The notes under the pieces are model-generated. The model saw only the letters and a list, made by a program, of their open reading frames with translations. It was not told where the DNA came from and made no database searches. Below are positions 22,022 through 33,855 of a DNA stretch of 52,287 bases, piece after piece. The stretch covers positions 1 through 52,287 of the IMG/VR virus record IMGVR_UViG_3300035156_000067. One strand, 5' to 3'. How positions within the stretch are numbered: the stretch's first letter is position 1; every line of letters starts with the position of its first letter. The position numbers and the translations under genes are program-made. This DNA is from a virus.

Positions 22022-22055
22022 CAAGGGGTTAGGTCGATTTCTGCCTAACCCCTTG
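22022..22055. repeat. 12-bp perfect inverted repeat at the integrase 3' end
   Basis: CAAGGGGTTAGG (22022-22033) and CCTAACCCCTTG (22044-22055) are perfect inverted copies with a 10-nt loop. The integrase stop codon lies inside the repeat. Neither strand has a following T-tract. It may be part of attP or may protect the end of the leftward mRNA. Confidence 0.65.
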
Positions 22056-23129
22056 GTCTCCGGTTTGCATAGGAGTTTGCAAACTCCGTTCCCGCTTTGG
22101 CCTGTAGAACCGCGCCCAGAGGCGAGTCGCGTTCTTGATCGCAACAGCTAGGCGATCGACATAGACGCCTTGCGCCCCCCTCTCGTCGGCTATTGGGTGA
22201 CCGCTGCAATAAGCCGTTTCCTCAGCCGTCCAGCCCATCCCCCGGCGGCTGGTGATGAAGGTTCCGCGTAGGTCGTTGAAGGTCCGGTCCTCAACCCCGG
22301 CCTTGGCCGTCATAAGCTGGAAGTCGGAGCGGAGCCCGTTGCCGTTCGGGTTGAAGGGCCGCTCGCGGGGCGTCGAGAGTATGGTCGTGCATACCCGAGG
22401 CGCATCAGCCAACATCGCAGCGAGGGTCGGAGAGATTGGGATCGCGACCGGGACGCCGGTTTTCAGGCGCTTGGACACGATGACGTTGGACTGGATGGCG
22501 GACCACGGCAGGACGAGAAGGTCTTCCTGCGAAAGGCCAGTCTCGAGCGCGAGGATGACGGCCCGCTGGATCGCCGGCGATGACGCGGCGAGGATGGCCT
22601 TCACCATTTCAGGCGTCCACACCTTCTCAGTCCGATCAGCCTTGTAAACATCCTCGATGCCGCTGGCCCGGTTGTGCGTCACCAGCCCGCGCTTGCCGCA
22701 CCACGTCAGCATGGCGCCCAGAACCGAGATTGCGTAGTCCGCCTGCCGGGGCGAGGTCTCGGCCATCTTGTCCCGCCACTCGTAAAGGACGCCCGCGATC
22801 TTCGGCGACTGGATGGCGGCGATGGAGAGCTTGGCGAACCGGGCATGGATCTTGTCGAGTTGCCGGTGATAGTCGCGCTGGGTCAGGGGGCGCAGCTTTT
22901 TGAACTCGGGCGAGGACTTGTAGCGCCAGATCAGGTGCGAGACCTTCCCCTCCTCCGGGGCCCGCCTCAGGACCTCGGCAAGGTTGAAGTGGAAGTCGGG
23001 ACCGCCTTCGCGGCCAAGCGCCTCCATGCCCTCCCCACGGCCATAGTAGCCGTATCGAATGACCTCCCCGCTCGCGAGGGTCTTCTTCTGAAACCAGACG
23101 CCTTTAGGCAGCGTCGTTCTGGATTTCAC
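22029..23129 (-). CDS. int: Tyrosine-type integrase
   Basis: The product is 366 residues from GTG 23129, chosen because GAGG lies 9 nt upstream and longer starts (23153, 23174) overlap the preceding gene more. Residues about 60-150 look like a core-binding SAM-like domain. The catalytic domain shows a Lys hairpin (SKRLKTG, near 223), NDLR (285-288), GH (310-311) and the nucleophile Tyr323 in QGVYVDR. The first catalytic Arg expected in 'TGLR' is Ser200 here, and the usual His of HxxR is Asn285, so two of the canonical residues differ. It is the last gene of the leftward operon, next to attP. Confidence 0.9.
   Translation of the reverse strand: MKSRTTLPKGVWFQKKTLASGEVIRYGYYGRGEGMEALGREGGPDFHFNLAEVLRRAPEEGKVSHLIWRYKSSPEFKKLRPLTQRDYHRQLDKIHARFAKLSIAAIQSPKIAGVLYEWRDKMAETSPRQADYAISVLGAMLTWCGKRGLVTHNRASGIEDVYKADRTEKVWTPEMVKAILAASSPAIQRAVILALETGLSQEDLLVLPWSAIQSNVIVSKRLKTGVPVAIPISPTLAAMLADAPRVCTTILSTPRERPFNPNGNGLRSDFQLMTAKAGVEDRTFNDLRGTFITSRRGMGWTAEETAYCSGHPIADERGAQGVYVDRLAVAIKNATRLWARFYRPKRERSLQTPMQTGDQGVRQKST
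22063..22087. repeat. attP arm repeats, P' side, with 16-bp perfect palindrome
   Basis: GTTTGCA occurs at 22063-22069 and 22075-22081. The second copy is inside GGAGTTTGCAAACTCC (22072-22087), a perfect 16-bp palindrome. Both lie within the last codons of the integrase gene. With the P-side copies they flank the tRNA core and are the likely arm sites. Confidence 0.6.
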
Positions 23130-23310
23130 AGCGTAGTGCCTCGATCTCAGCATCAATGCTGTCTGGCGTATCATTGGCGGCGGTCGGGCGCACGGTGACG
23201 ATGGGCTTGCCTTCGCCGTCGAACCTAATGTCGTAGCTCTCTACGCCAGCCAGTCGCATGGCGGATGCAACGCGGGCGAGCTCTACCTTGCGAAACCGGG
23301 CCGCGCTCAT
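23104..23310 (-). CDS. Small protein upstream of integrase, unknown (possible excisionase slot)
   Basis: The product is 68 residues. The N-terminal half is a basic helix (SAARFRKVELARVASAMRLAG) followed by two strands and an acidic helix. It overlaps integrase by 26 bp and starts in an ATGA overlap with the upstream gene. The position just before int and the basic start would suit an excisionase. This is only a possibility, since no winged-helix signature is evident. Confidence 0.65.
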   Translation of the reverse strand: MSAARFRKVELARVASAMRLAGVESYDIRFDGEGKPIVTVRPTAANDTPDSIDAEIEALRCEIQNDAA

Positions 23311-23513
23311 CTCGTGTCCTTGGTGGCGAGATTTGGTTTCACTCCGCCTGACGGTTTATCCGGTTCTTCGTACCAGCCCGCCCTTACGGCCTGCTTTGAC
23401 AGGTTTCCGCTCGCATCGAATACGTCCACGCCATTGATGTGAAACGACCCATTTCGCATTCCCATGCAATCGGACAGGCGCTGAGATCCGTCCTTACTTA
23501 CGAAGGTCGTCAT
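23307..23513 (-). CDS. Small protein, unknown; ends in a palindromic element
   Basis: The 68-residue product is mostly beta (SFHINGVDVFDASGNLSKQA). AAGGAG lies 7 nt before the ATG. The C-terminus (KPSGGVKPNLA) is encoded by dispersed palindromic element E1 (23331-23366). The upstream gap of 79 bp holds element E2. Confidence 0.65.
   Translation of the reverse strand: MTTFVSKDGSQRLSDCMGMRNGSFHINGVDVFDASGNLSKQAVRAGWYEEPDKPSGGVKPNLATKDTR
23331..23366 (-). repeat. Dispersed palindromic element E1 (transcript-sense)
   Basis: Read on the minus strand it contains AACCGTCAGGCGGAGTGAA then ACC, with CCG/CGG stem ends and the family's right flank GTGAAACC. It is translated at the C-terminus of the 23307..23513 gene. 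The left flank (GGATAAA) is less conserved. Confidence 0.55.
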
Positions 23514-23533
23514 GACGACGCTCCTTCATCGGA

Positions 23534-23570
23534 ATTGTTAGCTCCGCCTGACGGCTGCGTACCTAGCGGG
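23534..23570 (-). repeat. Dispersed palindromic element E2 (transcript-sense, intergenic)
   Basis: On the minus strand it reads CTAGGTACGCAGCCGTCAGG then CGGAGCTAAC, so it shares AGCCGTCAGGCGGAG with E1 and GGTACG with E6 and E8. It lies in the gap after the stop of 23593..23847 and is not translated. It is the only clearly intergenic copy. Confidence 0.6.
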
Positions 23571-23592
23571 TCTGGTGAGGGGGTCCGGGTCA

Positions 23593-23847
23593 TCACTCGC
23601 CCTCGTGTTCGATGCGGCGCATGGCCAGCGGTTCGTCGGCGTCGAGCGTGAACATCCAATAGTGGAACTCAACGGCATCAGCGATTTGTTGGACCGGGAC
23701 GCGCAGGGCCGAAGCGGCGTCACCGAACGTGGGCGCGGTCCATTTGCCGGTGTCGGCATAGCGCTTCTCACCGGCATTGATGGCCCATTTCTGAACCTTG
23801 TTGGCGAAGTCGGCCATTGCGTAATCAAAGTCGGAAGCGGCGGTCAT
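23593..23847 (-). CDS. Hypothetical protein
   Basis: The 84-residue product is helical with several aromatics (FANKVQKWAINAGEKRY, VEFHYWMF). It is linked upstream by ATGA, and an untranslated palindromic element follows its stop. The region WTAPTFGDAASALRVPVQQI has the rhythm of a helix-turn-helix, but this is weak evidence. Confidence 0.65.
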   Translation of the reverse strand: MTAASDFDYAMADFANKVQKWAINAGEKRYADTGKWTAPTFGDAASALRVPVQQIADAVEFHYWMFTLDADEPLAMRRIEHEGE

Positions 23848-24176
23848 TCGCCCGCTCCTTCAGACAGGATGGCGTCGATGATGGCGGTGAAGGATGAGCG
23901 AACATGGTCGGGTGTCGTCTGCATGTACGGGAGCTCGTCACGCCCCGCGCAGACCATCTCGACGTCAGGCTCTCGGATTGCCAGTAGGCCGGCGCGGGCG
24001 AGGTCGAGATAGAGATCGGGATTATTGTCGTAGAGCGTCGCGCCCTTGAAACGATCGCCATCACGTTGAGCAATGGCCCGGCCCATTCTCTCGAGCATGG
24101 TGGCGGGCGTGTCCGATTGCTCGGTAGGTATGAGCCCGTCGGGCGAATGAAACCCTGACCCTGATCCGCTAGTCAT
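23844..24176 (-). CDS. Hypothetical protein with palindromic-element N-terminus
   Basis: The product is 110 residues. The first 20 (GSGFHSPDGLIPTEQ) are encoded by element E3 and look like a disordered linker. The rest is helical (ATMLERMGRAIAQRDGDRF, then a C-terminal helix). Similar N-terminal 'GF-S/T-P...PTEQ' peptides occur in two other unrelated proteins of this operon. ATGA overlaps at both ends. Confidence 0.65.
   Translation of the reverse strand: MTSGSGSGFHSPDGLIPTEQSDTPATMLERMGRAIAQRDGDRFKGATLYDNNPDLYLDLARAGLLAIREPDVEMVCAGRDELPYMQTTPDHVRSSFTAIIDAILSEGAGE
24118..24157 (+). repeat. Dispersed palindromic element E3 (antisense, at gene start)
   Basis: On the plus strand it reads TGCTCGGTAGGTATGAGCCC, then GTCGGGCGAATGAAACC. 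The stem is GCCC-GTC-GGGC between the conserved flanks GGTA and TGAAACC. It lies in the first codons of the minus-strand gene 23844..24176. Confidence 0.7.
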
Positions 24177-24472
24177 GATGCAACTCCGAGGGCTTGGTCT
24201 CGGGCTTGGTCGAACGAAACGTCGAACAGCGTTTCCATGTCGTCCACCAGCGTGAAAGCCGCGCTGTTTCCGTTCTGACGATTGATCAGGGCCGTGTGGT
24301 ACTTGGTCAGCGCCGCTCTACAATCTGCTAGAGCTTCGAGAAGGGCGGTGGCGTCGGCGGTGCTGACCAGCGTCAGGGAGCCTTCAGGGTCGCCCGCGTA
24401 GTGTCCGAACGGGCTAGACAGGCTTTCCTTCAGCCTCTCAATCAGCTCTGCGGTGTTGGCGGGGACGGTCAT
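24173..24472 (-). CDS. Hypothetical protein
   Basis: The 99-residue product has an N-terminal helix (TAELIERLKESL), an acidic middle and a helix ALLEALADCRAALTKYH. The style resembles small phage early proteins that are often annotated only as hypothetical. ATGA couples it to both neighbours. Confidence 0.65.
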   Translation of the reverse strand: MTVPANTAELIERLKESLSSPFGHYAGDPEGSLTLVSTADATALLEALADCRAALTKYHTALINRQNGNSAAFTLVDDMETLFDVSFDQARDQALGVAS

Positions 24473-24639
24473 GCCTTACCACCGGATTGCTGAACACGAT
24501 CGAACGCCTCTTGTAGCTCTGCGAGGACGCTGGGGCTGATGACGTAATCTTCGTTGTCAGGCGTCACCGCGCCGACCGGCTCAGCGTTCTCCAGAACTGC
24601 AAAAACCGCAGCTTGCAGATCGTTCATTGCATCACCCAT
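24469..24639 (-). CDS. Small acidic protein, unknown
   Basis: This 56-codon gene fills the space between two ATGA-linked genes. It is acidic with two helices (LQAAVFAVLENA, VLAELQEAFDRVQQ). AAGG lies 7 nt before the ATG at 24639; a second in-frame ATG at 24627 is possible. It overlaps the upstream gene by 8 bp and ends in ATGA with the next gene. Confidence 0.6.
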   Translation of the reverse strand: MGDAMNDLQAAVFAVLENAEPVGAVTPDNEDYVISPSVLAELQEAFDRVQQSGGKA

Positions 24640-25081
24640 TGGTCTTGCCTTCTTTGTTGGAGGTTATGGTTTCATTTGCTTCGCAAATACCGCAGGTGCT
24701 GGAGGAAACGCTCTGATTTACCTTTGGTTTGGCCACCTTGATCTTTGCCGATCCAAGCTTAGTCAGTTTTGCCCTGCTCGCGCTGTCTGGATGAATGCCG
24801 AGAAGGCCCAGACCGCATAGGTGCGCCACCGTTTCCACTGGCCACGGCCCACCTTTTTCGGAATCTGCCTGAAACTCCGACCAGTTCGCCCGCGCCCACC
24901 ATCCTAGATCGGTCTCCCGGCTAAGGGGGCAAACCTTGCTGGCCTGCTTTCGGATCAGACCATAGCCCTTCGCTGCACTTAGGCAGGCCATCAGCACAGG
25001 TGGCAGTTGACTGGAAACTCCCGCCTCCCGCTCGGTGGGCATGGAGCCGCTTGGCGGAATAATCCCAGAATACTCGGTCAT
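24632..25081 (-). CDS. Hypothetical protein flanked by palindromic elements
   Basis: The product is 149 residues. Element E5 encodes its N-terminus (IIPPSGSMPTER) and E4 its C-terminus (SSSTCGICEANETIT), the two in opposite orientation. The middle (LMACLSAAKGYGLIRKQ, TDLGWWARANWSEF) is unrecognised. It is the clearest case of one gene bracketed by inverted element copies. Confidence 0.65.
   Translation of the reverse strand: MTEYSGIIPPSGSMPTEREAGVSSQLPPVLMACLSAAKGYGLIRKQASKVCPLSRETDLGWWARANWSEFQADSEKGGPWPVETVAHLCGLGLLGIHPDSASRAKLTKLGSAKIKVAKPKVNQSVSSSTCGICEANETITSNKEGKTNG
24662..24700 (-). repeat. Dispersed palindromic element E4 (transcript-sense, at gene end)
   Basis: The minus strand reads CACCTGCGGTATTTGCGAAG then CAAATGAAACC. 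The stem ATTTGC-gaa-GCAAAT is quite different in sequence from the GC-rich stems of other copies, yet fully paired. The flanks GGTA and TGAAACC are the same. The CACCTGCGGTA prefix matches E6. Confidence 0.65.
25029..25066 (+). repeat. Dispersed palindromic element E5 (antisense, at gene start)
   Basis: The plus strand reads CGCTCGGTGGGCATGGAGCC, then GCTTGGCGGAATAATCCC. The stem is CCGC-TTG-GCGG. It encodes the N-terminus of 24632..25081. Confidence 0.6.
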
Positions 25082-25266
25082 GCAGGGGTCTCTGGGTTGG
25101 TGCGGAGAGACGCGAAGTAGGCGTATTCGTCACGGACACAGCGCGCCACAGATCGAGAGTTCCAGTACCAGCCTTCGCCGTATACGTTCCGGTTCAGAGC
25201 GTCTTTGACTTGCCAGCCGCCGTCATCCACGACGCGAAAAGGCGCCACGAAAACTATCTCGTTCAC
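25078..25266 (-). CDS. Small aromatic-rich protein, unknown
   Basis: The 62-residue product starts at GTG 25266 with AGAGG 7 nt upstream. It is rich in Trp/Tyr/Phe (GEGWYWNSRSVARC, EYAYF). Its ribosome site lies in a 17-bp sequence that is repeated before 26589..26870. It is coupled to the next gene by ATGA. Confidence 0.62.
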   Translation of the reverse strand: MNEIVFVAPFRVVDDGGWQVKDALNRNVYGEGWYWNSRSVARCVRDEYAYFASLRTNPETPA

Positions 25267-25703
25267 TTCGTCACCTCTTCATTCGGGAGAGGGGGAAGGG
25301 CTGCGAACTTGAGCGGGCGAACAAGGCGGATGCGGGGGCCGCCATCAGGGCGCTCGTGCGTCAGGCGATTATGCCAGATGCCCATGAACTGTTGTTCGAA
25401 AGCCCAAGCGTCAGCGTCTCCGGAAGAGGTGGCTAGGGCGGCTACGACCACCTTGTGGATGTCCGTCTTCTTGGCTGCCGAGAGAGACAGGAAGCCCTCG
25501 ATGCCCGCGACGCAGCGATCGTATGCGTCCTTTTTGACAGCCTCCCCGCCCCCTTCCGGTGCGGATTGAACGGGGGATGCTGCGTAAAGGGGTGTTCCGA
25601 TTGGCACGTCAGCGGACCTGAAAGCCGCCATCGTGAAGCCGTCCGTTCCGGGCATTGAGCCCGCGACGCCGACCGGCACGACTTTATAGGGGTGGGCGGT
25701 CAT
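25263..25703 (-). CDS. Hypothetical protein
   Basis: The product is 146 residues from ATG 25703, which overlaps the upstream stop as ATGA; an in-frame ATG at 25775 lies inside the upstream gene and is rejected. It has a Pro/Gly/Val start (PVGVAGSMPGTDGFTMAAF), a helical centre (KKDAYDRCVAGIEGFLSLS), and a C-terminus LPNEEVTK that is nearly the same as that of the 26867..27778 protein. Confidence 0.65.
   Translation of the reverse strand: MTAHPYKVVPVGVAGSMPGTDGFTMAAFRSADVPIGTPLYAASPVQSAPEGGGEAVKKDAYDRCVAGIEGFLSLSAAKKTDIHKVVVAALATSSGDADAWAFEQQFMGIWHNRLTHERPDGGPRIRLVRPLKFAALPPLPNEEVTK
25273..25289 (-). repeat. 17-bp gene-end/ribosome-site repeat, copy 1
   Basis: ACCTCTTCATTCGGGAG is identical at 25273-25289 and 26877-26893. 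On the transcript it encodes the Pro-Asn-Glu-Glu end of the upstream protein and supplies GAAGAGG as the ribosome site of the next gene in both places. Confidence 0.65.
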
Positions 25704-25936
25704 TTCGAATATCCGAGTGCTGGAGTGATTGAGACGCGGGCCAGTCGCCAGCCCTTGCGGTAGGCGCGCTGCCACACCTTTGAGGTCGTGAGGCCGTCGT
25801 GTCCGCCATGCCGCCAGTCAGCCACAAATCTGGCCATAGACCCGGCGCGGGTTCCTGAGACGGAGTAGATGTCCACCTCGACAAAGCCCCATTCTGGCGG
25901 CGTCAGAACCGCCCATGCGAAGGTCACGGCCCTCAC
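25700..25936 (-). CDS. Small basic protein, unknown
   Basis: The 78-residue product is beta-rich at the start (VTFAWAVLTPPEWGFVEVDIY) with a basic Trp-containing C-terminal half (SKVWQRAYRKGWRLARVSI). That half resembles the nucleic-acid-facing side of small folds, but no family is clear. It is linked to both neighbours by ATGA. Confidence 0.62.
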   Translation of the reverse strand: MRAVTFAWAVLTPPEWGFVEVDIYSVSGTRAGSMARFVADWRHGGHDGLTTSKVWQRAYRKGWRLARVSITPALGYSK

Positions 25937-26592
25937 GCCCCCTCTCCGCGCTTCGTATCGAGGAGGGCTCGCCGGGCGTTAATCTGCTCGACGGTCGCCC
26001 ATTCGTCAGGGGCCTTGGCGTTATCCCATCCGCCGTGTTCGTTCATGGCCTGCCAGCGACCCTTGATGCCGCGTCGGAACTGCTCGCTGGAGGGCTTGTA
26101 TGCCTGCCAGCGATACGGCGACCACGTATGCCCGTAGATCGGTTCGGCGGACCTCGGAGGTGCATCGGACCGCCATTCGATTTGAGCCTCCAGCTCCTTC
26201 ACCCGCTGGTCGTCAGGCGCGGCTAGCGTGGCTTTACGGTACGCGGCCCACGGCGTGTCAGGCGCACGCTCCCCCCGTTCGTCATCAGCTATTGATGGGG
26301 TGAGGGCGCCGCTCAGGGCGAGGATGGCGCGGAGGTCCAGAGCATTGACAACGACCGTGTCGCCCTCACGCCAATCGAACTCGTTGGCGGCGGAAGTCAG
26401 CCGCTCGACAGCCTCCCGCATCCCTCCGACATCACCCGCCTGCAAGGGAGGGGGTGGATAGACGGAGTTCATGCTGTTGGCGAAAGAGGTCGCGTCTCTC
26501 TTTTTGGAGAACCGCGCTATCGTCTGTCCGTCGCTCTCGATGGCCCATCCATCAGGATCGCCTTGAACGACTACGACACCCACGCCGCTCAC
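25933..26592 (-). CDS. Hypothetical protein
   Basis: The product is 219 residues. The N-terminal 45 form a small strand-helix unit (VVVVQGDPDGWAIESDGQTI). The rest is helical with a mid linker, and the C-terminal half is rich in Trp (WSPYRWQAYKPSSEQF). No catalytic motif is seen. ATGA links at both ends make it part of the long early operon. Confidence 0.65.
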   Translation of the reverse strand: MSGVGVVVVQGDPDGWAIESDGQTIARFSKKRDATSFANSMNSVYPPPPLQAGDVGGMREAVERLTSAANEFDWREGDTVVVNALDLRAILALSGALTPSIADDERGERAPDTPWAAYRKATLAAPDDQRVKELEAQIEWRSDAPPRSAEPIYGHTWSPYRWQAYKPSSEQFRRGIKGRWQAMNEHGGWDNAKAPDEWATVEQINARRALLDTKRGEGA

Positions 26593-26870
26593 GCCTTCAC
26601 CTGTTGAGCTTGGTTTACTTCGCCAAGAGGCTCCGTACCGCAGGTGCTTGGGGATGCGGCGGGACCAATGATCTTGATCGTGCAGATGGTCTCGCCCTCA
26701 GATACGATGTCGGCCTGCATGCCGATGCCGATGTGATCCATGACGGCCTTGAGAGCGTCGCTCGTTAAGTCGTAGCGAGGTTCCTTGAACCCCATCCCAT
26801 CCTTGGTTGGTCGTCCGGCGAAGATGCGACCCGAAAGCGCGGCGGTCGCGAGGCGGATGGGATTGCTCAT
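26589..26870 (-). CDS. DUF7446-like small protein with element-encoded tail
   Basis: The product is 93 residues. The first 68 (RLATAALSGRIFAGR, DVT-like DLTSDALKAVMDHIG) resemble a small phage family seen near DNA-modification genes (DUF7446-like; recognition is tentative). The C-terminal tail (PSTCGTEPLGEVNQ) is encoded by element E6. The ribosome site lies in the 17-bp repeat at 26877-26893. Confidence 0.65.
   Translation of the reverse strand: MSNPIRLATAALSGRIFAGRPTKDGMGFKEPRYDLTSDALKAVMDHIGIGMQADIVSEGETICTIKIIGPAASPSTCGTEPLGEVNQAQQVKA
26607..26648 (-). repeat. Dispersed palindromic element E6 (transcript-sense, at gene end)
   Basis: The minus strand reads AGCACCTGCGGTACGGAGCC, then TCTTGGCGAAGTAAACC. 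Stem GCC-tctt-GGC. The downstream peptide TCGTEPLGEVNQ parallels TAGTEPSSASKP of E8. Confidence 0.65.
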
Positions 26871-27778
26871 TTTGAGACCTCTTCATTCGGGAGTTCCCAC
26901 CCGGCAGTCGCCGCAGCGAGGTTTTCTACGTGGCTCTCCCGCGTCCCGGTCCAGAGCGCTGGAACAGCCTTGACCTCAGGACCAATAGCGTTTGCTCGAT
27001 CCGACCATTCGACGGCAGTTTCGTAGTTCGGAGCCGGATAGATGTCGTCCGGGCCGCGAGCATGCATCATCCAGAGCAGGTAACGAGCGGTATCCCATTG
27101 ACCGGCGGTCTCGTCCGCCTGCTCGGTGGGTACGAAGCCCGTCTCGGGCGTAGTGAAACCCTTATCCTTCTCAGTAGGGAGTGAAGAGCTTGGCTTACTC
27201 GCCGAAGACGGCTCCGTACCCGCCGTCGATGGGGATGCAGCGCCACTCAGACGGAAGGCGATGATGCAGCAAGGGCCGCTCGGCACGTTCCACGATGCGG
27301 CGTCGGACGGCCTGTTCATCCACGACCGCTTCCAATCATCGACATAGTCCACCATCAGCCCCGGAACCGGGTTCTCCCCTCCGCTCCACGGGATCCAGCC
27401 TTCTGCGTCAGGACGACCGATGAAGGCGAATGACTTCGGCGATGAGTTTCCGAACGACGTGCCGTTCAGGTAATCGCCCGACCAGCCGTCGCCGTGGATG
27501 AAACGAAGCCATGCGACCCGCCCGTCTCGATGGCGGATAAGGTCACCCGCCTCGCCAACCGGCGGCATGGCCTGACCGGAAGCATCAGCCACAGTCTCGG
27601 TGGGGATTTCCAAGTCGCTCAGCGTCGGTCCGGGGTCCTGACCCATCGCTATCAGCTTGGCGGCATCATCTTGCAGGGCCGCGTCCATGACGGGATCGGT
27701 GCTGTAGATGCCGGTCCCGGTGGGGATTTCCTGCAAGGAAATAGAACCAAAATCTTCCATGGGGTGGTCGGTGTTCAT
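26867..27778 (-). CDS. Apparent fusion of two small-protein modules joined at element pair E7/E8
   Basis: The product is 303 residues from ATG 27778 (ATGA with the upstream gene). Residues about 1-175 form one module with element-type N-terminus (GSISLQEIPTGTG) and an SGAASPSTAGTEP end like a gene terminus. About 175-205 is translated from two elements in opposite orientation, 24 bp apart. Residues 205-303 form a second module starting GFVPTEQADETAG like the start of 23844..24176 and ending LPNEEVSK like 25263..25703. It looks like an old gene boundary whose stop and start were lost. Confidence 0.65.
   Translation of the reverse strand: MNTDHPMEDFGSISLQEIPTGTGIYSTDPVMDAALQDDAAKLIAMGQDPGPTLSDLEIPTETVADASGQAMPPVGEAGDLIRHRDGRVAWLRFIHGDGWSGDYLNGTSFGNSSPKSFAFIGRPDAEGWIPWSGGENPVPGLMVDYVDDWKRSWMNRPSDAASWNVPSGPCCIIAFRLSGAASPSTAGTEPSSASKPSSSLPTEKDKGFTTPETGFVPTEQADETAGQWDTARYLLWMMHARGPDDIYPAPNYETAVEWSDRANAIGPEVKAVPALWTGTRESHVENLAAATAGWELPNEEVSK
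26877..26893 (-). repeat. 17-bp gene-end/ribosome-site repeat, copy 2
   Basis: Identical to 25273-25289. Here it ends the 26867..27778 gene and provides AGAGG 8 nt before the ATG at 26870. Confidence 0.65.
27120..27162 (+). repeat. Dispersed palindromic element E7 (antisense)
   Basis: The plus strand reads TGCTCGGTGGGTACGAAGCC, then CGTCTCGGGCGTAGTGAAACC. The stem is GCCCG-TCT-CGGGC. It is translated inside the fused protein 26867..27778, 24 bp from E8. Confidence 0.7.
27187..27229 (-). repeat. Dispersed palindromic element E8 (transcript-sense)
   Basis: The minus strand reads GGCGGGTACGGAGCCGTCTT, then CGGCGAGTAAGCCAAGCT. The stem is GCCG-TCTT-CGGC. It faces E7 and marks the end of the first module of the fused protein. 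Confidence 0.7.
27594..27615 (+). repeat. Dispersed palindromic element E9 (partial)
   Basis: GTCTCGGTGGGGATTTCC is shared with E10 and, in reverse, E11 (GGTGGGGATTTC), but the second arm and the AGAACC flank are missing. It appears to be a truncated copy translated as DLEIPTE. Confidence 0.5.
27711..27755 (+). repeat. Dispersed palindromic element E10 (antisense, at gene start)
   Basis: The plus strand reads CCGGTCCCGGTGGGGATTTC, then CTGCAAGGAAATAGAACCAAAATC. The stem is ATTTCC-TGCAA-GGAAAT. It encodes GSISLQEIPTG near the N-terminus of 26867..27778 and is the same subtype as E11. Confidence 0.65.
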
Positions 27779-28140
27779 GCTTGCACCTGAGCTTTGCGTT
27801 CGCGACGTTCGCGGTTGCGACGTTGTTCGCGAGATTCCGGCCGAATGTTCTGGACCTTCATGCGAAGGGTGCGCGGCATCCACGTCACGTCAGAGGACAG
27901 AAGCCCTCTGCCCATGATTTGACACTGGCCAGCCGCAGCGCCGATCCGCATCCCCTCCGAGCGCGAGACAAAGCGGCCTTCCGACGTCCAAAACCCGTAA
28001 GTGTCGCTCATGTCCTTCTGATAAGGATCGGGGCGACCAAGGCTCGCGCGTAGCTCCCAATGCTCTCGAAAGCCGTGATGCGTGACGCCATCGCCATCGA
28101 TCAATGCAACCTCGACAAGTCGTTCTGTTGGTTTCGTCAT
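27775..28140 (-). CDS. Hypothetical protein
   Basis: The product is 121 residues with a beta-rich N-terminal part (VEVALIDGDGVTHHGF), a motif YGFWTSEGRFVSRSEGMRIG, and a strongly basic C-terminal helix (SREQRRNRERRERKAQ), which suggests nucleic acid contact. The start follows the upstream stop directly (TGAATG), and the end overlaps the next start by ATGA. Confidence 0.65.
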   Translation of the reverse strand: MTKPTERLVEVALIDGDGVTHHGFREHWELRASLGRPDPYQKDMSDTYGFWTSEGRFVSRSEGMRIGAAAGQCQIMGRGLLSSDVTWMPRTLRMKVQNIRPESREQRRNRERRERKAQVQA

Positions 28141-28311
28141 TCAGAAAAGCTCCATCTGTTGAGAGTTGGCGCGATCAGCCTCAAGGGCTCGGCGCTCTGC
28201 GTTGGCGGCCCAGGTATCGAGGACCGAGGCGAAGGCACGATCGCAGCGCATGTCCGACTGCCGGCGCACATCGGCCTCAGTGCGGAGAACAGCGGCGGTG
28301 TGGCGGCTCAT
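28141..28311 (-). CDS. Small helical protein, unknown
   Basis: The 56-codon gene starts in an ATGA overlap with the cytosine methyltransferase stop. The product is one long helix rich in Arg/Ala/Glu (LRTEADVRRQSDMRCDRAF). It may be a partner of the methyltransferase, but only position supports this. Confidence 0.6.
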   Translation of the reverse strand: MSRHTAAVLRTEADVRRQSDMRCDRAFASVLDTWAANAERRALEADRANSQQMELF

Positions 28312-29321
28312 GCGGCGAGCCTTTCGGCTGGGGCCGCGTCCATGTAGGCACCGATCAGGTTCGTGAACGCCTCGACGTCGATCGCGTCACCGAACCCTGA
28401 CAGGAGGCCCATATTTTTGGGATCCGCATCAGCGAGCGGGCTAAGTCCGGGTTCAACCGGGCGCCAGAGTCCATCACGGCCGAGGAGCCAGTCAGGGCCG
28501 CCGCCATATTCAGGGTCTGGTTCGGCCCGAATGGATCGCCACCCTGCCCCCGATGACCATCCGTCACAGTCGGAGTAGGCCAGACGGACAGAAGGGCCTG
28601 ATCGCCCAGATAGAGCGGCACCGTGCTCTGGTTGGCGTTGCGCTTCCGGAAGTCCGCGCACTTCGCCATAGTCTCGTCCGAGCGCGGGCGATCCGTCACG
28701 GCTGGGGTCGCCCAACCGGATGCCCGTGCCGCCATATCCAAGGTCACCTGAGCTTTCGACCCGTCCGGTTTTCGGCCAGTGACCGTCGTGCCATGGGGCA
28801 CGGTCTGACCACCACTCGGCGTTGTCGGCGTCGGCCACGAAGCCAAAGCGCTGGCGTCGGTGCGCGCCTCCGAAGCCCGCAGCCGGTATATCAGGCGTCC
28901 CGATGGCGTAACGCTCGCCCTCCAGGTCACCTGAAACAAGATCGAGCCACTCGATCGCGTTCGCAGATTGCTCACCAAAGATGCAGACAGGCCGGCGCTG
29001 GCGGATGAGCCGAAACCATTCCGGCCATAGGTGGCGCGGGTCGTCAAATCCGAGGCCGAGCCCGGCTTCCGAGAAGGGGCCGCAGGGGCAAGAGCCTGTC
29101 CAAACAGGTCGGTCATCTGGCCATCCGGCACGACGCAGGCAGAGGCTCCAGAGACCGATCCCGGCGAAGAAATGATGCTGGTCGAAACCGGAGAGGTCGT
29201 CGGGTTGGACTTCCTCGATCGAGCGCTCGTCAACGATGCCATGAGCGATCTCGCCCTCCTCTATGAGATTGCGAAGCCACGCGGCCTTCTTGCGGTCGAA
29301 CTCGTTGTAATAGGCGGCCAC
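28308..29321 (-). CDS. DNA cytosine-5 methyltransferase
   Basis: The product is 337 residues from GTG 29321. Motif I is FAGIG (52-56), motif IV SCPCGPFS with the catalytic Cys80 (79-80 PC), motif VI GEQ (116-118, in place of the usual ENV), and motif VIII RRQRF (155-159). The C-terminal LLSGFGDAIDVEAFTNLIG fits motifs IX-X. The target-recognition region (about 170-290) is compositionally odd (Asp/Gly/Trp/Arg-rich) because it shares its DNA with a second long open frame. There is no restriction enzyme gene alongside, so it is an orphan enzyme, probably protecting phage DNA. Confidence 0.88.
   Translation of the reverse strand: MAAYYNEFDRKKAAWLRNLIEEGEIAHGIVDERSIEEVQPDDLSGFDQHHFFAGIGLWSLCLRRAGWPDDRPVWTGSCPCGPFSEAGLGLGFDDPRHLWPEWFRLIRQRRPVCIFGEQSANAIEWLDLVSGDLEGERYAIGTPDIPAAGFGGAHRRQRFGFVADADNAEWWSDRAPWHDGHWPKTGRVESSGDLGYGGTGIRLGDPSRDGSPALGRDYGEVRGLPEAQRQPEHGAALSGRSGPSVRLAYSDCDGWSSGAGWRSIRAEPDPEYGGGPDWLLGRDGLWRPVEPGLSPLADADPKNMGLLSGFGDAIDVEAFTNLIGAYMDAAPAERLAA
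28355..29242 (-). CDS. Alternate-frame overlapping gene inside the cytosine methyltransferase
   Basis: On the same strand, shifted by +1, 295 codons are open from ATG 29242. The predicted protein has non-random motifs that I recognise from many phage proteins: a segment ILFQVTWRASVTPSGRLIYR, then repeated SWPTPTTPSGG, GWATPAVTD and VWPTPTVTDG blocks, and a C-terminal LNPDLARSLMRIPKIW. AGGAGGG stands about 12 nt before the ATG. Similar frames accompany Dcm-type genes in other phages (from memory), so it may be a true overlapping gene or a by-product of the methyltransferase coding pattern. Confidence 0.5.
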   Translation of the reverse strand: MASLTSARSRKSNPTTSPVSTSIISSPGSVSGASACVVPDGQMTDLFGQALAPAAPSRKPGSASDLTTRATYGRNGFGSSASAGLSASLVSNLRTRSSGSILFQVTWRASVTPSGRLIYRLRASEARTDASALASWPTPTTPSGGQTVPHGTTVTGRKPDGSKAQVTLDMAARASGWATPAVTDRPRSDETMAKCADFRKRNANQSTVPLYLGDQALLSVWPTPTVTDGHRGQGGDPFGPNQTLNMAAALTGSSAVMDSGARLNPDLARSLMRIPKIWASCQGSVTRSTSRRSRT

Positions 29322-29355
29322 GGTCAGCCCTCCCCTTGCGTAACGGAGGGGGTCT

Positions 29356-29535
29356 TCATCCTTCTGCTCCGGGATTTTGATGGTCTATTTCGCGTTGCGA
29401 AATCCCCACCGAGAGCGTGTCGGCGTTATCGCTTACTGGACGCATCACCTCGGGAAGCCGGTCTAGGCCGACGAGATGGATGCCGATGGCCACGGCCTGA
29501 AGCTCAGCGGCAAGGCGGGCGTTGGAGACGGTCAT
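29356..29535 (-). CDS. Small protein with element-encoded C-terminus
   Basis: This 59-codon gene sits between the two methyltransferase genes. It starts in an ATGA overlap with the upstream gene. The N-terminal two thirds are helical (ARLAAELQAVAIGIHLVG), and the C-terminus (LSVGISQREIDHQN) is encoded by element E11. The 34-bp gap to the next gene holds no other gene. Confidence 0.6.
   Translation of the reverse strand: MTVSNARLAAELQAVAIGIHLVGLDRLPEVMRPVSDNADTLSVGISQREIDHQNPGAEG
29373..29415 (-). repeat. Dispersed palindromic element E11 (transcript-sense, at gene end)
   Basis: The minus strand reads CTCTCGGTGGGGATTTCGC, then AACGCGAAATAGACC and ATCAAAATC. The stem ATTTCGC-aac-GCGAAAT differs from E10's by compensating changes while the flanks agree. 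Confidence 0.65.
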
Positions 29536-30422
29536 GCGGCCACGCTGACGTTGGCGAACATGCCCTGCTCATCGCTGATGCGACGGCGAGCGATCTCGGC
29601 ATATTCGGGGTTCAGCTCGATCAGGACGGCACTGCGTCCGAGACGATCAGCGACAAGTCCGGTCGTGCCAGCGCCGCCAAATGGGTCAAGTATCGTGTCG
29701 CCCTCGCTACTCGAGCAGACGATGCAGCGCCTTGCTATTTCGGGCGTCATTGGCGCGGGATGCTCAGTCGCGCCCGATGGCGAGACCCTCCAAACACTTG
29801 AGCTAAACCAGTCCTCGCCCGGATTGCGGACGCGGCTTGGGCCATTAGGGGTCAGCAGAAAAATGTAAGAATGTGAGACGGACGGGCGGTCCTGCCGAGG
29901 CGGTTCGGTGGCCGTGCCTTTATCCCAGATGATCGTCTTGCGGAGATACCACCCATCGGCCCGGAGGCGGTCGGCGACCTGAAACGGAGTCAGCGAGAGG
30001 TCGCGAACCTTGTACCCCTTCGGCGGCGACCGCCATCCCGTGCGCTGTTGCAGGCTGGTCAGTTTATGGCGCTTGGCGGCCCTGCTCCCGCCGCCGCCGT
30101 TTCCGCCGGCGGCATAGGTATCGCCCAGCTCGATCCACAGCGATCCGTCTTGCGCAAGCGTCCGCCGTACCTCTCGCATGACTTCAACCAGAGAGTCGGC
30201 GAAGTCTGCCGGACACCCCTCCGTGCCAAGCTGTCCGTCCGCTTCGTAGTCACGTTGCCGCCAGAACGGTGGGCTGGTTACACAGGCCGTCACGCTTCCC
30301 GTGGCGACGTCAGCGAGCCGGTCCCGACAGTTGCCCGTGAGGAGTGACAGTGACGTCTGCTCGGTAGGTACTCGACGGTCTTCCGGCGAGTGAAACCCAA
30401 CCTTTCCATCAGGATATGTCAT
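29532..30422 (-). CDS. DNA methyltransferase, beta-type (N4-cytosine or N6-adenine)
   Basis: The product is 296 residues. Motif IV is TSPPFW (49-53), and the SAM-binding motif I is DPFGGAGTTG (246-255). The order IV before I defines the beta class. SPPF favours N4-cytosine, but N6-adenine enzymes with SPPY/F exist. GSLWIELGDTY lies between and is typical of the family. The first 24 residues (GFHSPEDRRVPTEQ) come from element E12 and look like an added linker. There is no partner nuclease. Start ATGA overlaps the upstream gene. Confidence 0.88.
   Translation of the reverse strand: MTYPDGKVGFHSPEDRRVPTEQTSLSLLTGNCRDRLADVATGSVTACVTSPPFWRQRDYEADGQLGTEGCPADFADSLVEVMREVRRTLAQDGSLWIELGDTYAAGGNGGGGSRAAKRHKLTSLQQRTGWRSPPKGYKVRDLSLTPFQVADRLRADGWYLRKTIIWDKGTATEPPRQDRPSVSHSYIFLLTPNGPSRVRNPGEDWFSSSVWRVSPSGATEHPAPMTPEIARRCIVCSSSEGDTILDPFGGAGTTGLVADRLGRSAVLIELNPEYAEIARRRISDEQGMFANVSVAA
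30358..30400 (+). repeat. Dispersed palindromic element E12 (antisense, at gene start)
   Basis: The plus strand reads TGCTCGGTAGGTACTCGACG, then GTCTTCCGGCGAGTGAAACCC. The stem CG-A-CGG/CCG-G-CG has one mismatch around loop TCTT. It encodes the N-terminus of the beta-type methyltransferase. Confidence 0.68.
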
Positions 30423-30787
30423 AGCGTGGGCTCCGAAGCTTTGGCGGCAGCTCGGAGAGCCTGAACGACTTCAGATTGGGTGCGCTTGGGGGCGTCGTTG
30501 AAGCCCATAGGGGAGCAGCCGTGCACGGCTATGAACGCGGCTTGCAGGTTAGCGCGTAGATCACCATGCTCCACATATCTGCGGCCCAGAACCTTCTCAA
30601 AGGCCCCGTCTGCGCACCAGCAGGCAGCCTTCGGTTCGTCGCCGAAGTCCACGATACGTCCCGCCGAGTCGCGGGCCCACGCATGCTGTATCCAAGCACC
30701 CGGCTTATCCAGCAGATCAGCAGCAGCGTTCAGAACACCCGCCACACCCTCGCCAGACCCTGAAGCCTCTAGGCTGGAGTTATCCAT
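30419..30787 (-). CDS. DUF6197-like protein
   Basis: The product is 122 residues from ATG 30787, whose GGAG ribosome site and start lie in a 16-bp repeat. The pattern VLNAAADLLDKPGAWIQHAW, then RDSAGRIV, and ACWCADGAFEKVLG matches a small phage family (DUF6197-like) of unknown function. It overlaps the upstream gene by 8 bp. Confidence 0.7.
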   Translation of the reverse strand: MDNSSLEASGSGEGVAGVLNAAADLLDKPGAWIQHAWARDSAGRIVDFGDEPKAACWCADGAFEKVLGRRYVEHGDLRANLQAAFIAVHGCSPMGFNDAPKRTQSEVVQALRAAAKASEPTL

Positions 30788-31019
30788 TAGTTTTGCTCCG
30801 GGGCTGCTTCTTGGCTGCAGGGCTCGGACGGGCATGCACCCGGTCGACGACGAACTCCTGACCGCTCAACGGCGCGGTGTGTCCGCCCCGGAACAGGGCG
30901 GCAGCGACCAAGTCTCGGTTGGCGACGAGCTTTGACCAGACCTCCTCAACCTCGGCGGACGTCGGGAACGTCTCGCGACTGTGGATGCCGATGATCGTGA
31001 CGAGTTTGTAGTCGGCCAT
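30780..31019 (-). CDS. Hypothetical protein bounded by direct repeats
   Basis: The 79-residue product has an N-terminal beta part (KLVTIIGIHSRETFP), a helix and a basic Pro/Lys end. A 16-bp direct repeat lies exactly at its start junction (31016-31031) and at the next gene's start junction (30784-30799), so the gene looks like an exchangeable cassette. Confidence 0.62.
   Translation of the reverse strand: MADYKLVTIIGIHSRETFPTSAEVEEVWSKLVANRDLVAAALFRGGHTAPLSGQEFVVDRVHARPSPAAKKQPRSKTNG
30784..30799 (-). repeat. 16-bp ribosome-site/start repeat, copy 1
   Basis: The minus strand reads GGAGCAAAACTAATGG, identical to 31016-31031. It contains GGAG, an 8-nt spacer and ATG, so the repeat is a ready-made translation start. 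Confidence 0.7.
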
Positions 31020-33163: not shown

Positions 33164-33855
33164 ATCGTGATCTCCTGTTCGTACCGGCGCTCGGTCGGGA
33201 TCAGGCGGACGCCCGATTTGCAGACGCGCTGGAACTCGGCGTGCATCTGGTTGATCTTGATTTCGGCGTCGGTCGCGATGGACACGATCGCCTCTTGGAT
33301 GGTCGGGTCGGGGTGGACGCGAACCGTCGCCATCGGCAGCCCGGCGCTGTAGCTGATGAAGTCCAGCCACTTCCGCTCGCTGACCAGAAGGCCGGTCTGG
33401 CACTGGATCAGGAACTCGGCAGGCACCTTGTCTTCGGCTACCGACTTGAGGATCGTCTCGACCTGGAACTTGTGCTTGCGGGACTTGCACTCGATCAGCC
33501 CGTCGTCGCCGACCAGTCCATCCGGCGAATAGCCGATGGTGAAGCCCCAGCGGTCGTTCGTGATGAAGCCGCAATCCTGAACCGGCTCGTAGTGCTCGGC
33601 ATAGGCAATGCGGGCGTCGATCTCGTCTTCGTGGCCGCGAAGCATATCGAAGCCGGTGTAGGTCTCCTCGACGTAGCCAGCGATGCGCTGCGACACGAGC
33701 GTGAAGAGGTGGGCGCGCTGGTTGTCGTTCGCGGCCGCCTTCATCGTGGCGGGCGTGACCAGCAAGCGCATCTCGCTCGCCGTGAGGACGCCCCGGCGGA
33801 TTTCGAGCCAGTCGCCGGAGCCCTGAGCGAGGTCGTGGTGATATTTGACGGCCAT
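33160..33855 (-). CDS. YqaJ-type phage recombination exonuclease
   Basis: The product is 231 residues from ATG 33855; longer starts overlap the upstream gene. The lambda-exonuclease/YqaJ layout is clear: GSGDWLEIRRGVLTASEM (12-29), GHEDEIDARIAYAE (74-87), then GYSPDGLVGDDGLIECKSRK with Asp112 and the Glu122-Cys-Lys124 metal site, and an IQCQTGLLVSERKWLDF helix-strand. It should resect double-stranded ends for homologous recombination. Confidence 0.9.
   Translation of the reverse strand: MAVKYHHDLAQGSGDWLEIRRGVLTASEMRLLVTPATMKAAANDNQRAHLFTLVSQRIAGYVEETYTGFDMLRGHEDEIDARIAYAEHYEPVQDCGFITNDRWGFTIGYSPDGLVGDDGLIECKSRKHKFQVETILKSVAEDKVPAEFLIQCQTGLLVSERKWLDFISYSAGLPMATVRVHPDPTIQEAIVSIATDAEIKINQMHAEFQRVCKSGVRLIPTERRYEQEITI

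Follow-up and report, generated by a model that had tools for sequence, protein, structure and literature searches.

Why do unrelated genes in the early region of a phage carry a similar short palindrome at their ends? The question is raised by IMG/VR virus record IMGVR_UViG_3300035156_000067, a stretch of 52,287 nt (the window; all element coordinates are positions in it). Its minus-strand early region, with an integrase gene (PHROG, 22029-23129) on one side and recombination and replication genes on the other, holds 12 candidate copies of a palindromic element noted in a preliminary description. Eleven of the 12 were upheld, whereas the copy at 23534 could not be separated from noise. We consider it reasonably probable that the elements are structured boundary tags for the exchange of gene and domain cassettes in temperate Brevundimonas phages. 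This reading builds on what was observed directly: a fold that covaries, an orientation that follows the genes, use in several reading frames, and tags that coincide with breakpoints and with recent exchanges.

Hairpins with divergent but paired stems

Matching of the flanks alone gave 21 matches in the whole window (at most 2 mismatches) vs 16 expected, which is not significant; the evidence for a family must therefore come from structure and from relatives. A covariance model (R1) with ten pairs was built from 20 aligned copies, two of them from the window. In this fold the base is formed by GGT/ACC, A/T and Y/R pairs with a two-base bulge, and above it come the GGA/GNA internal loop, which is asymmetric, then 2-7 stem pairs and a short loop, in many copies GAA. 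R1 matched in 20 of 20 records tested. The 105 copies across the fetched loci have the consensus CTCGGTR-GGTAY-(GGA)-stem-loop-stem-(GNA)-RTGMACC, and the element is 30-45 bp long, typically about 40 bp.

That all copies share their flanks had been overstated; only 3 copies match CTCGGTRGGTA exactly, and GTGAAACC occurs in a minority. All sequences named earlier were found in the window, and the listed stems are paired as quoted: GCCCG/CGGGC at 27120, GCCG/CGGC at 27190, CCGC/GCGG at 25029, ATTTGC/GCAAAT at 24667, ATTTCC/GGAAAT at 27714 and ATTTCGC/GCGAAAT at 29380. Stems all differ, even within one genome, yet they are paired. The internal loop is also kept, with G..A in 65 of 76 full-length copies on the 5' side and in 67 of 76 on the 3' side.

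Compensating change in the stems, claimed from the window copies, was borne out by the 105 copies of relatives, in which the covariation score was 0.397 vs 0.121 when shuffled. Sliding the partners by 1-3 columns reduced pairing to at most 40% of cells. In an alignment of the 96 distinct rows of R1-found copies, which was fitted to the model and thereby favours pairing, 92.6% of cells were paired vs 71.9% after shuffling; both-sided changes were present at every stem pair and the basal Y/R pair was C-G in 51 rows and T-A in 43. A plain MAFFT alignment that was not fitted to the model (A2) gave the same covariation picture. The shape is conserved, not the sequence, and the hairpin is kept by compensating changes.

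It is general knowledge that quasi-palindrome template switching, which rewrites one arm of a hairpin from the other, can produce compensating changes without selection. That mutation of this kind keeps the stems paired is extremely improbable here: the mismatched GGA/GNA internal loop is preserved, which makes template switching an unlikely source of the covariation, and the Y-R pair beyond the loop still covaries.

A second covariance model (R2), made from 86 elements that all lie outside the window in other phages and prophages, was run filter-free on the whole window. Its top 11 matches in 52 kb, with E values between 2e-8 and 0.63, coincided with 11 of the 12 described copies and all lay at 23.3-30.4 kb; the next matches had E>=3. 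The independence of R2 is good, not total, because its seeds came via R1, which included two window copies. Chance or codon usage, the objection that the preliminary description had itself raised, was ruled out as the source of the likeness by the covariation in relatives and by this ranking in the window.

Beyond the window the family was present in Brevundimonas prophages and in over 25 viral contigs. Exact patterns matched the same element in many IMG/VR contigs, and an exact scan of 84,980 genomes gave a single match, in a Brevundimonas prophage. A covariance-model search of phages and the host order, as had been proposed, gave many matches at gene boundaries with paired, divergent stems; in the order itself 2 of 398 sampled genomes matched, in the class 1 of 385 and in Brevundimonas 10 of 131 (1-2 copies each). 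This rarity rules out a host genomic repeat. The four Brevundimonas genome loci inspected were all in or near prophage genes, with integrases at three and RecT/Bet/exonuclease genes close to the element at two. The element is phage-borne. No useful match was obtained among annotated phages and plasmids, and no description of the family was found in the literature searched, which left out most subscription journals.

Orientation relative to genes and exchange at the tags

Genes were called with a simple hexamer-based caller, so that counts of position are approximate. Among 50 sense copies 44 were at gene ends, 32 of them inside the end of an open reading frame (ORF), no more than 60 nt from the stop, and 12 directly past the gene in the spacer. 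Antisense copies (n=47) lay within 45 nt after a start codon in 27 cases and inside long ORFs in 11. The rule described for the window, sense copies at ends and antisense copies at starts, thus holds in relatives, and the conserved ACC end points to the gene junction. Bracketing of genes by inverted copies was likewise confirmed, with 8 genes carrying both tags vs 3.3 expected (p=0.009); a pattern of tags on both sides of every gene was not seen, and single-tag genes were common.

Most copies are translated, as stated earlier. Intergenic copies also exist, mainly in one phage record; L067 (3807-11346) holds five, in sense only, a subset that may show an ancestral or RNA role. The tags are translated in at least two frames, with peptides of the SVGTE and LGGYE types at ends and of the IPTEQ and AHTQ types at starts. 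The nucleic acid is therefore conserved, not the peptide, and similar terminal peptides are a by-product. Selection at the peptide level, which had been implied, is ruled out by the mixed reading frames.

Homology blocks between contigs ended within 10 nt of an element in 14.8% of cases vs 4.0% at random (maximum of 500 draws 6.4%), a 3.7-fold enrichment, and where homology ended at elements the shared side was mostly the junction (55 vs 26). Tagged gene boundaries had a breakpoint in 46 of 84 cases vs 133 of 376 for untagged boundaries (odds ratio 2.2, p=0.001). Two junction sequences, J1 and J2, were exact in six non-redundant contigs, where they enclose inserts of 181 to 424 nt with unlike genes; in a seventh contig (L047) J2 differs by one base and the insert measures 1058 nt. 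The inserts resemble one another in nucleotide sequence only at their margins, over about 30 nt on the start side and 20-60 nt on the end side (tags included), and the end tags carry different stems at the same site. Over 494 nt contigs L079 and L086 share 99.6% identity and diverge at the end tag; for L079 and L084 the identity is 100% over 123 nt and breaks off within the start tag. Of 40 block ends 8 fell in tags, vs 3.5% at random.

The same gene may also occur with or without tags. DUF6197 is tagged at both ends in L076, L063 and L080 and untagged in the window, and in L067 its coding end is untagged with an intergenic copy after the stop. The methylase of the window has an N-terminal tag, whereas its relatives in L031 and L082 start without one.

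Of the three roles suggested in the preliminary description (mobile element, gene-cassette boundary, RNA signal), the boundary for shuffling is favoured by these breakpoints and exchanges; as a whole, that interpretation is partly supported. As boundary tags the elements could work as follows. An accessory gene or domain may carry one inverted tag just after its start codon and one direct tag at its end; the ACC end then always faces the junction, because the start tag is inverted and the end tag direct. Tag and conserved junction (ribosome site, stop and start codons) would together form a short shared sequence for exchange, by which whole genes, or domains in fused genes, would be swapped in frame between co-infecting phages and prophages. 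The exchange would be carried out by ordinary phage homologous recombination with an exonuclease and an annealing protein. The fold would be kept because it acts as folded nucleic acid, in the simplest form as a forward-strand hairpin of single-stranded DNA (ssDNA) during exchange, which is the weakest step.

An exonuclease and an annealing protein are enough for exchange via short homologies (cf. PMC3945230 and PMC2327257). The window phage encodes a RecE-like exonuclease, element-bearing prophages have RecT, Bet and exonuclease VIII genes beside tags, and genes for exonuclease and annealing proteins occur in several of the phages. Pseudomonas phage JBD44 and relatives have, in their exonuclease region, a match of 94-96% identity to a 48-nt segment of the window (33491-33538), the surrounding DNA being unlike.

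With RNA energies the forward strand was the better hairpin in 41 of 47 sense and 42 of 50 antisense copies, and with DNA energies in 42 sense and 40 antisense copies. This better forward-strand hairpin points to DNA, whereas loop types and intergenic sense copies point to RNA; we place more weight on the boundary role than on this detail.

It is possible, if somewhat unlikely, that the element belongs to polycistronic mRNA. A hairpin by the ribosome site would insulate, couple or process the junction, swapped genes would then not misfold the start region, and the breakpoints at tags would be a by-product of conservation. The tags do flank junctions, the intergenic sense copies lie just past stop codons and upstream of the next start, in J2 the likely ribosome site lies between CCTCCC and its complement GGGAGG, and the loop type varies with orientation. 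However, the RNA of a start copy is the reverse complement, in which the G.A internal loop is missing and folding is poorer although the same letters are conserved, and Rfam models gave 0 matches. The complementary CCTCCC/GGGAGG segments enclose the likely ribosome site in both J1 and J2 (L026 5668-5696 and 6118-6149, and relatives), whose stop and start codons overlap or nearly touch, a layout that suggests translational coupling.

Several points weigh against boundary tags at which cassettes are exchanged by homologous recombination. Homology-driven exchange alone needs no covarying stem, and the conserved tag's own similarity can draw the ends of high-scoring segment pairs into the tag. No recombination protein common to all records was found, several of the records being fragments. 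The intergenic copies, mainly of one phage, are all in sense and resemble an RNA role. Finally, pyrimidine-rich loops are commoner in antisense copies (10 of 21 vs 3 of 29, p=0.007; counted by script and by hand), a hint that the mRNA strand is under selection, and a strict DNA-strand reading of the loops is weakened by these orientation-dependent types.

A further reading is a structure-guided cassette system, in which a phage or host enzyme recognises the folded ssDNA hairpin, not the sequence, and cuts or joins at the tag. We regard such a system as unlikely. If true, it would be integron-like, but with in-frame, two-sided swapping of genes and protein domains. As in integron attC sites, the stems are variable and the elements flank gene cassettes, and recognition in attC is based on shape. 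Unlike attC, the elements showed no integron core boxes on visual inspection, and an integrase family present in every record was not found; integrons also have one site per cassette, not two-sided tags. Integron cassettes come with a cognate tyrosine integrase; here the Phage_integrase family was found in 7 of 20 records, which may be fragments, and the integrase of the window was found by PHROG and missed by Pfam. No integron-type or other universal recombinase emerged, and no protein shared by all records was found.

Phage genomes are well known to be mosaic, and here the joints bear a recognisable, structurally conserved sign. With the joints visibly marked, a small host genus that can be cultivated offers the means to test for exchange at defined points. 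The tags can be used to mark off cassettes of early genes, among them methylases, HNH nucleases, DUF6197 and small proteins (the last possibly aimed at host defences), and they provide a naturally occurring model of a standard prefix and suffix with which genes can be swapped in frame. HNH endonuclease genes lie amid tagged genes (L024 4841-5299, L070 415-1029), one HNH family occurring in 10 of 23 records; homing nucleases may help to spread adjoining cassettes.

Relation to known repeats

Nearest in spirit are phage boundary sequences. In lambdoid phages these are short conserved intergenic anchors for module exchange, and Arbiol et al. reportedly described in 2010 the PeSL cassettes of T4-type phages, with an intergenic stem-loop and an early promoter. 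The tags share with both that homology in mosaic genomes starts or stops at conserved short anchors, a feature seen here. They differ in being mostly coding, inverted on both sides of the junction and covarying in their stems, and unlike PeSL the window region has no more promoter- or terminator-like sites than shuffled sequence. These differences set the tags apart from PeSL cassettes, and the site counts speak against a terminator or promoter role in the window. The novelty is the structured, coding, two-sided tag.

Simple mobility, the first of the earlier suggestions, was not supported. A nucleotide-level search for empty sites of single insertions gave two weak candidates, none clean; for this reason the tags were probably gained with exchanged pieces and not by simple insertion. 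Neither was Y1_Tnp found in 19 phage records, and the single host Y1 ORF had no element nearby. These results also bear on repetitive extragenic palindromes (REPs) of the GTAG type and their REPIN pairs, which have a palindrome of 20-40 bp and at one of its ends an unpaired GTAG-type tag, often near gene ends, sometimes in ORFs, and in opposed pairs (PMC3733652, PMC8266576). It is quite improbable that the elements are a phage-borne palindrome of this kind, spread by an HUH transposase (RAYT-type) acting on an ssDNA hairpin, with end tag, junction and start tag as the dimer. On the 5' side of the palindrome GTRG is frequent, which recalls the tag of GTAG REPs (PMC3733652), although its last G can pair and the variants GTCG and GCGG occur; the outward-facing tag pairs around a junction have a REPIN-like length, and REPs are known within ORFs (PMC3733652). 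Unlike REPs, however, the present elements are confined to phages, few in copy and mostly inside ORFs, their stems vary inside one genome, and their orientation tracks genes and not one replication strand. Membership of the REP family is ruled out by two tested features: no RAYT was found, and the elements are not high-copy chromosomal or extragenic repeats.

The preliminary description had set the family apart from two further repeats, rightly so in size, frames, sequence and location. The start-associated sequence (SAS) of Cluster K mycobacteriophages is a fixed 13-bp GGGATAGGAGCCC at translation initiation sites; SAS and the extended ESAS are short repeats at many non-structural genes of different families and rare in the host, ESAS having inverted repeats (PMC3203893). 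The tags resemble them in all these respects except the fixed sequence and site: here the consensus is another one, and the elements lie inside genes, at either end. SAS also lacks an inverted partner at the gene end and has no reported stem covariation. Membership of SAS/ESAS is ruled out by sequence and location. Rickettsia palindromic elements, also palindromic repeats translated in unrelated proteins, are about 150 bp, in frame inside host genes and give a conserved peptide (review PMC10969869). The present elements measure 30-45 bp, occupy the termini of phage genes and are translated in at least two frames; size and reading frames exclude membership.

The copies and genes of the window

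Starting from the integrase side, the first copy (23334-23380, minus strand) is in sense at the end of gene 23307-23513, with the stop 27 nt downstream; it has a CCG/CGG stem and has lost its 5' flank (R2 14.7 bits, E=0.088). The copy at 23534-23572 (minus) is a doubtful intergenic sense remnant that is not significant (6.2 bits, E=9.8). At 24118-24155 (plus) an antisense copy with stem GCCCG/CGGGC marks the start of gene 23844-24176, the ATG being 21 nt upstream (36.1 bits, E=6.7e-7). Gene 24632-25081 (minus) is an ORF bracketed by inverted elements. Its start carries an antisense copy at 25029-25067 (plus; CCGC/GCGG; 28.2 bits, E=5e-5) and its end a sense copy at 24662-24695 (minus; ATTTGC-GAA-GCAAAT; 14.5 bits, E=0.1). 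The 24-nt core of the latter is identical in viral contig L017, there also at a gene end, and L017 was the sole match in a search with the exact ATTTGC core pattern. A sense copy at 26610-26641 (minus; 15.5 bits, E=0.056) ends gene 26589-26870, about 21 nt before the stop.

Gene 26867-27883 (minus) consists of two cassettes fused in frame. The start of its first domain carries an antisense copy at 27714-27750 (plus) with a perfect 6-bp stem, ATTTCC/GGAAAT (11.2 bits, E=0.63). At the join a sense copy follows the first domain (27190-27227, minus; GCCG/CGGC; 24.2 bits, E=5e-4) and an antisense copy precedes the second (27120-27161, plus; GCCCG/CGGGC; 42.5 bits, E=2e-8). Homology to viral contig L018 starts right after the antisense copy, and the second domain recurs in L018 behind another linker. 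A further match at 27594-27613 (plus) has kept the 5' flank, the stem being absent (11.9 bits, E=0.41).

The small gene 29356-29535 ends in a sense copy (29380-29415, minus; ATTTCGC/GCGAAAT; 18.2 bits, E=0.013) with the stop 28 nt downstream. The adjoining gene 29532-30422 (minus) encodes an N6/N4 DNA methylase (Pfam PF01555, E=4e-34) whose N-terminal extension is the antisense copy at 30358-30398 (plus; 21.2 bits, E=0.0024), 24 nt after the ATG. Gene 30419-30835 (minus; DUF6197, Pfam PF19698) is without elements.

A second repeated gene-end sequence, CTCCCGAATGAAGAGGT on the minus strand, occurs at 25270-25289 and 26874-26893, at the ends of genes 25263-25775 and 26867-27883. In L018 (8840-10270) a large early gene has a non-palindromic repeated linker peptide of the APEARE type between its domains, perhaps another linker family of the same use.

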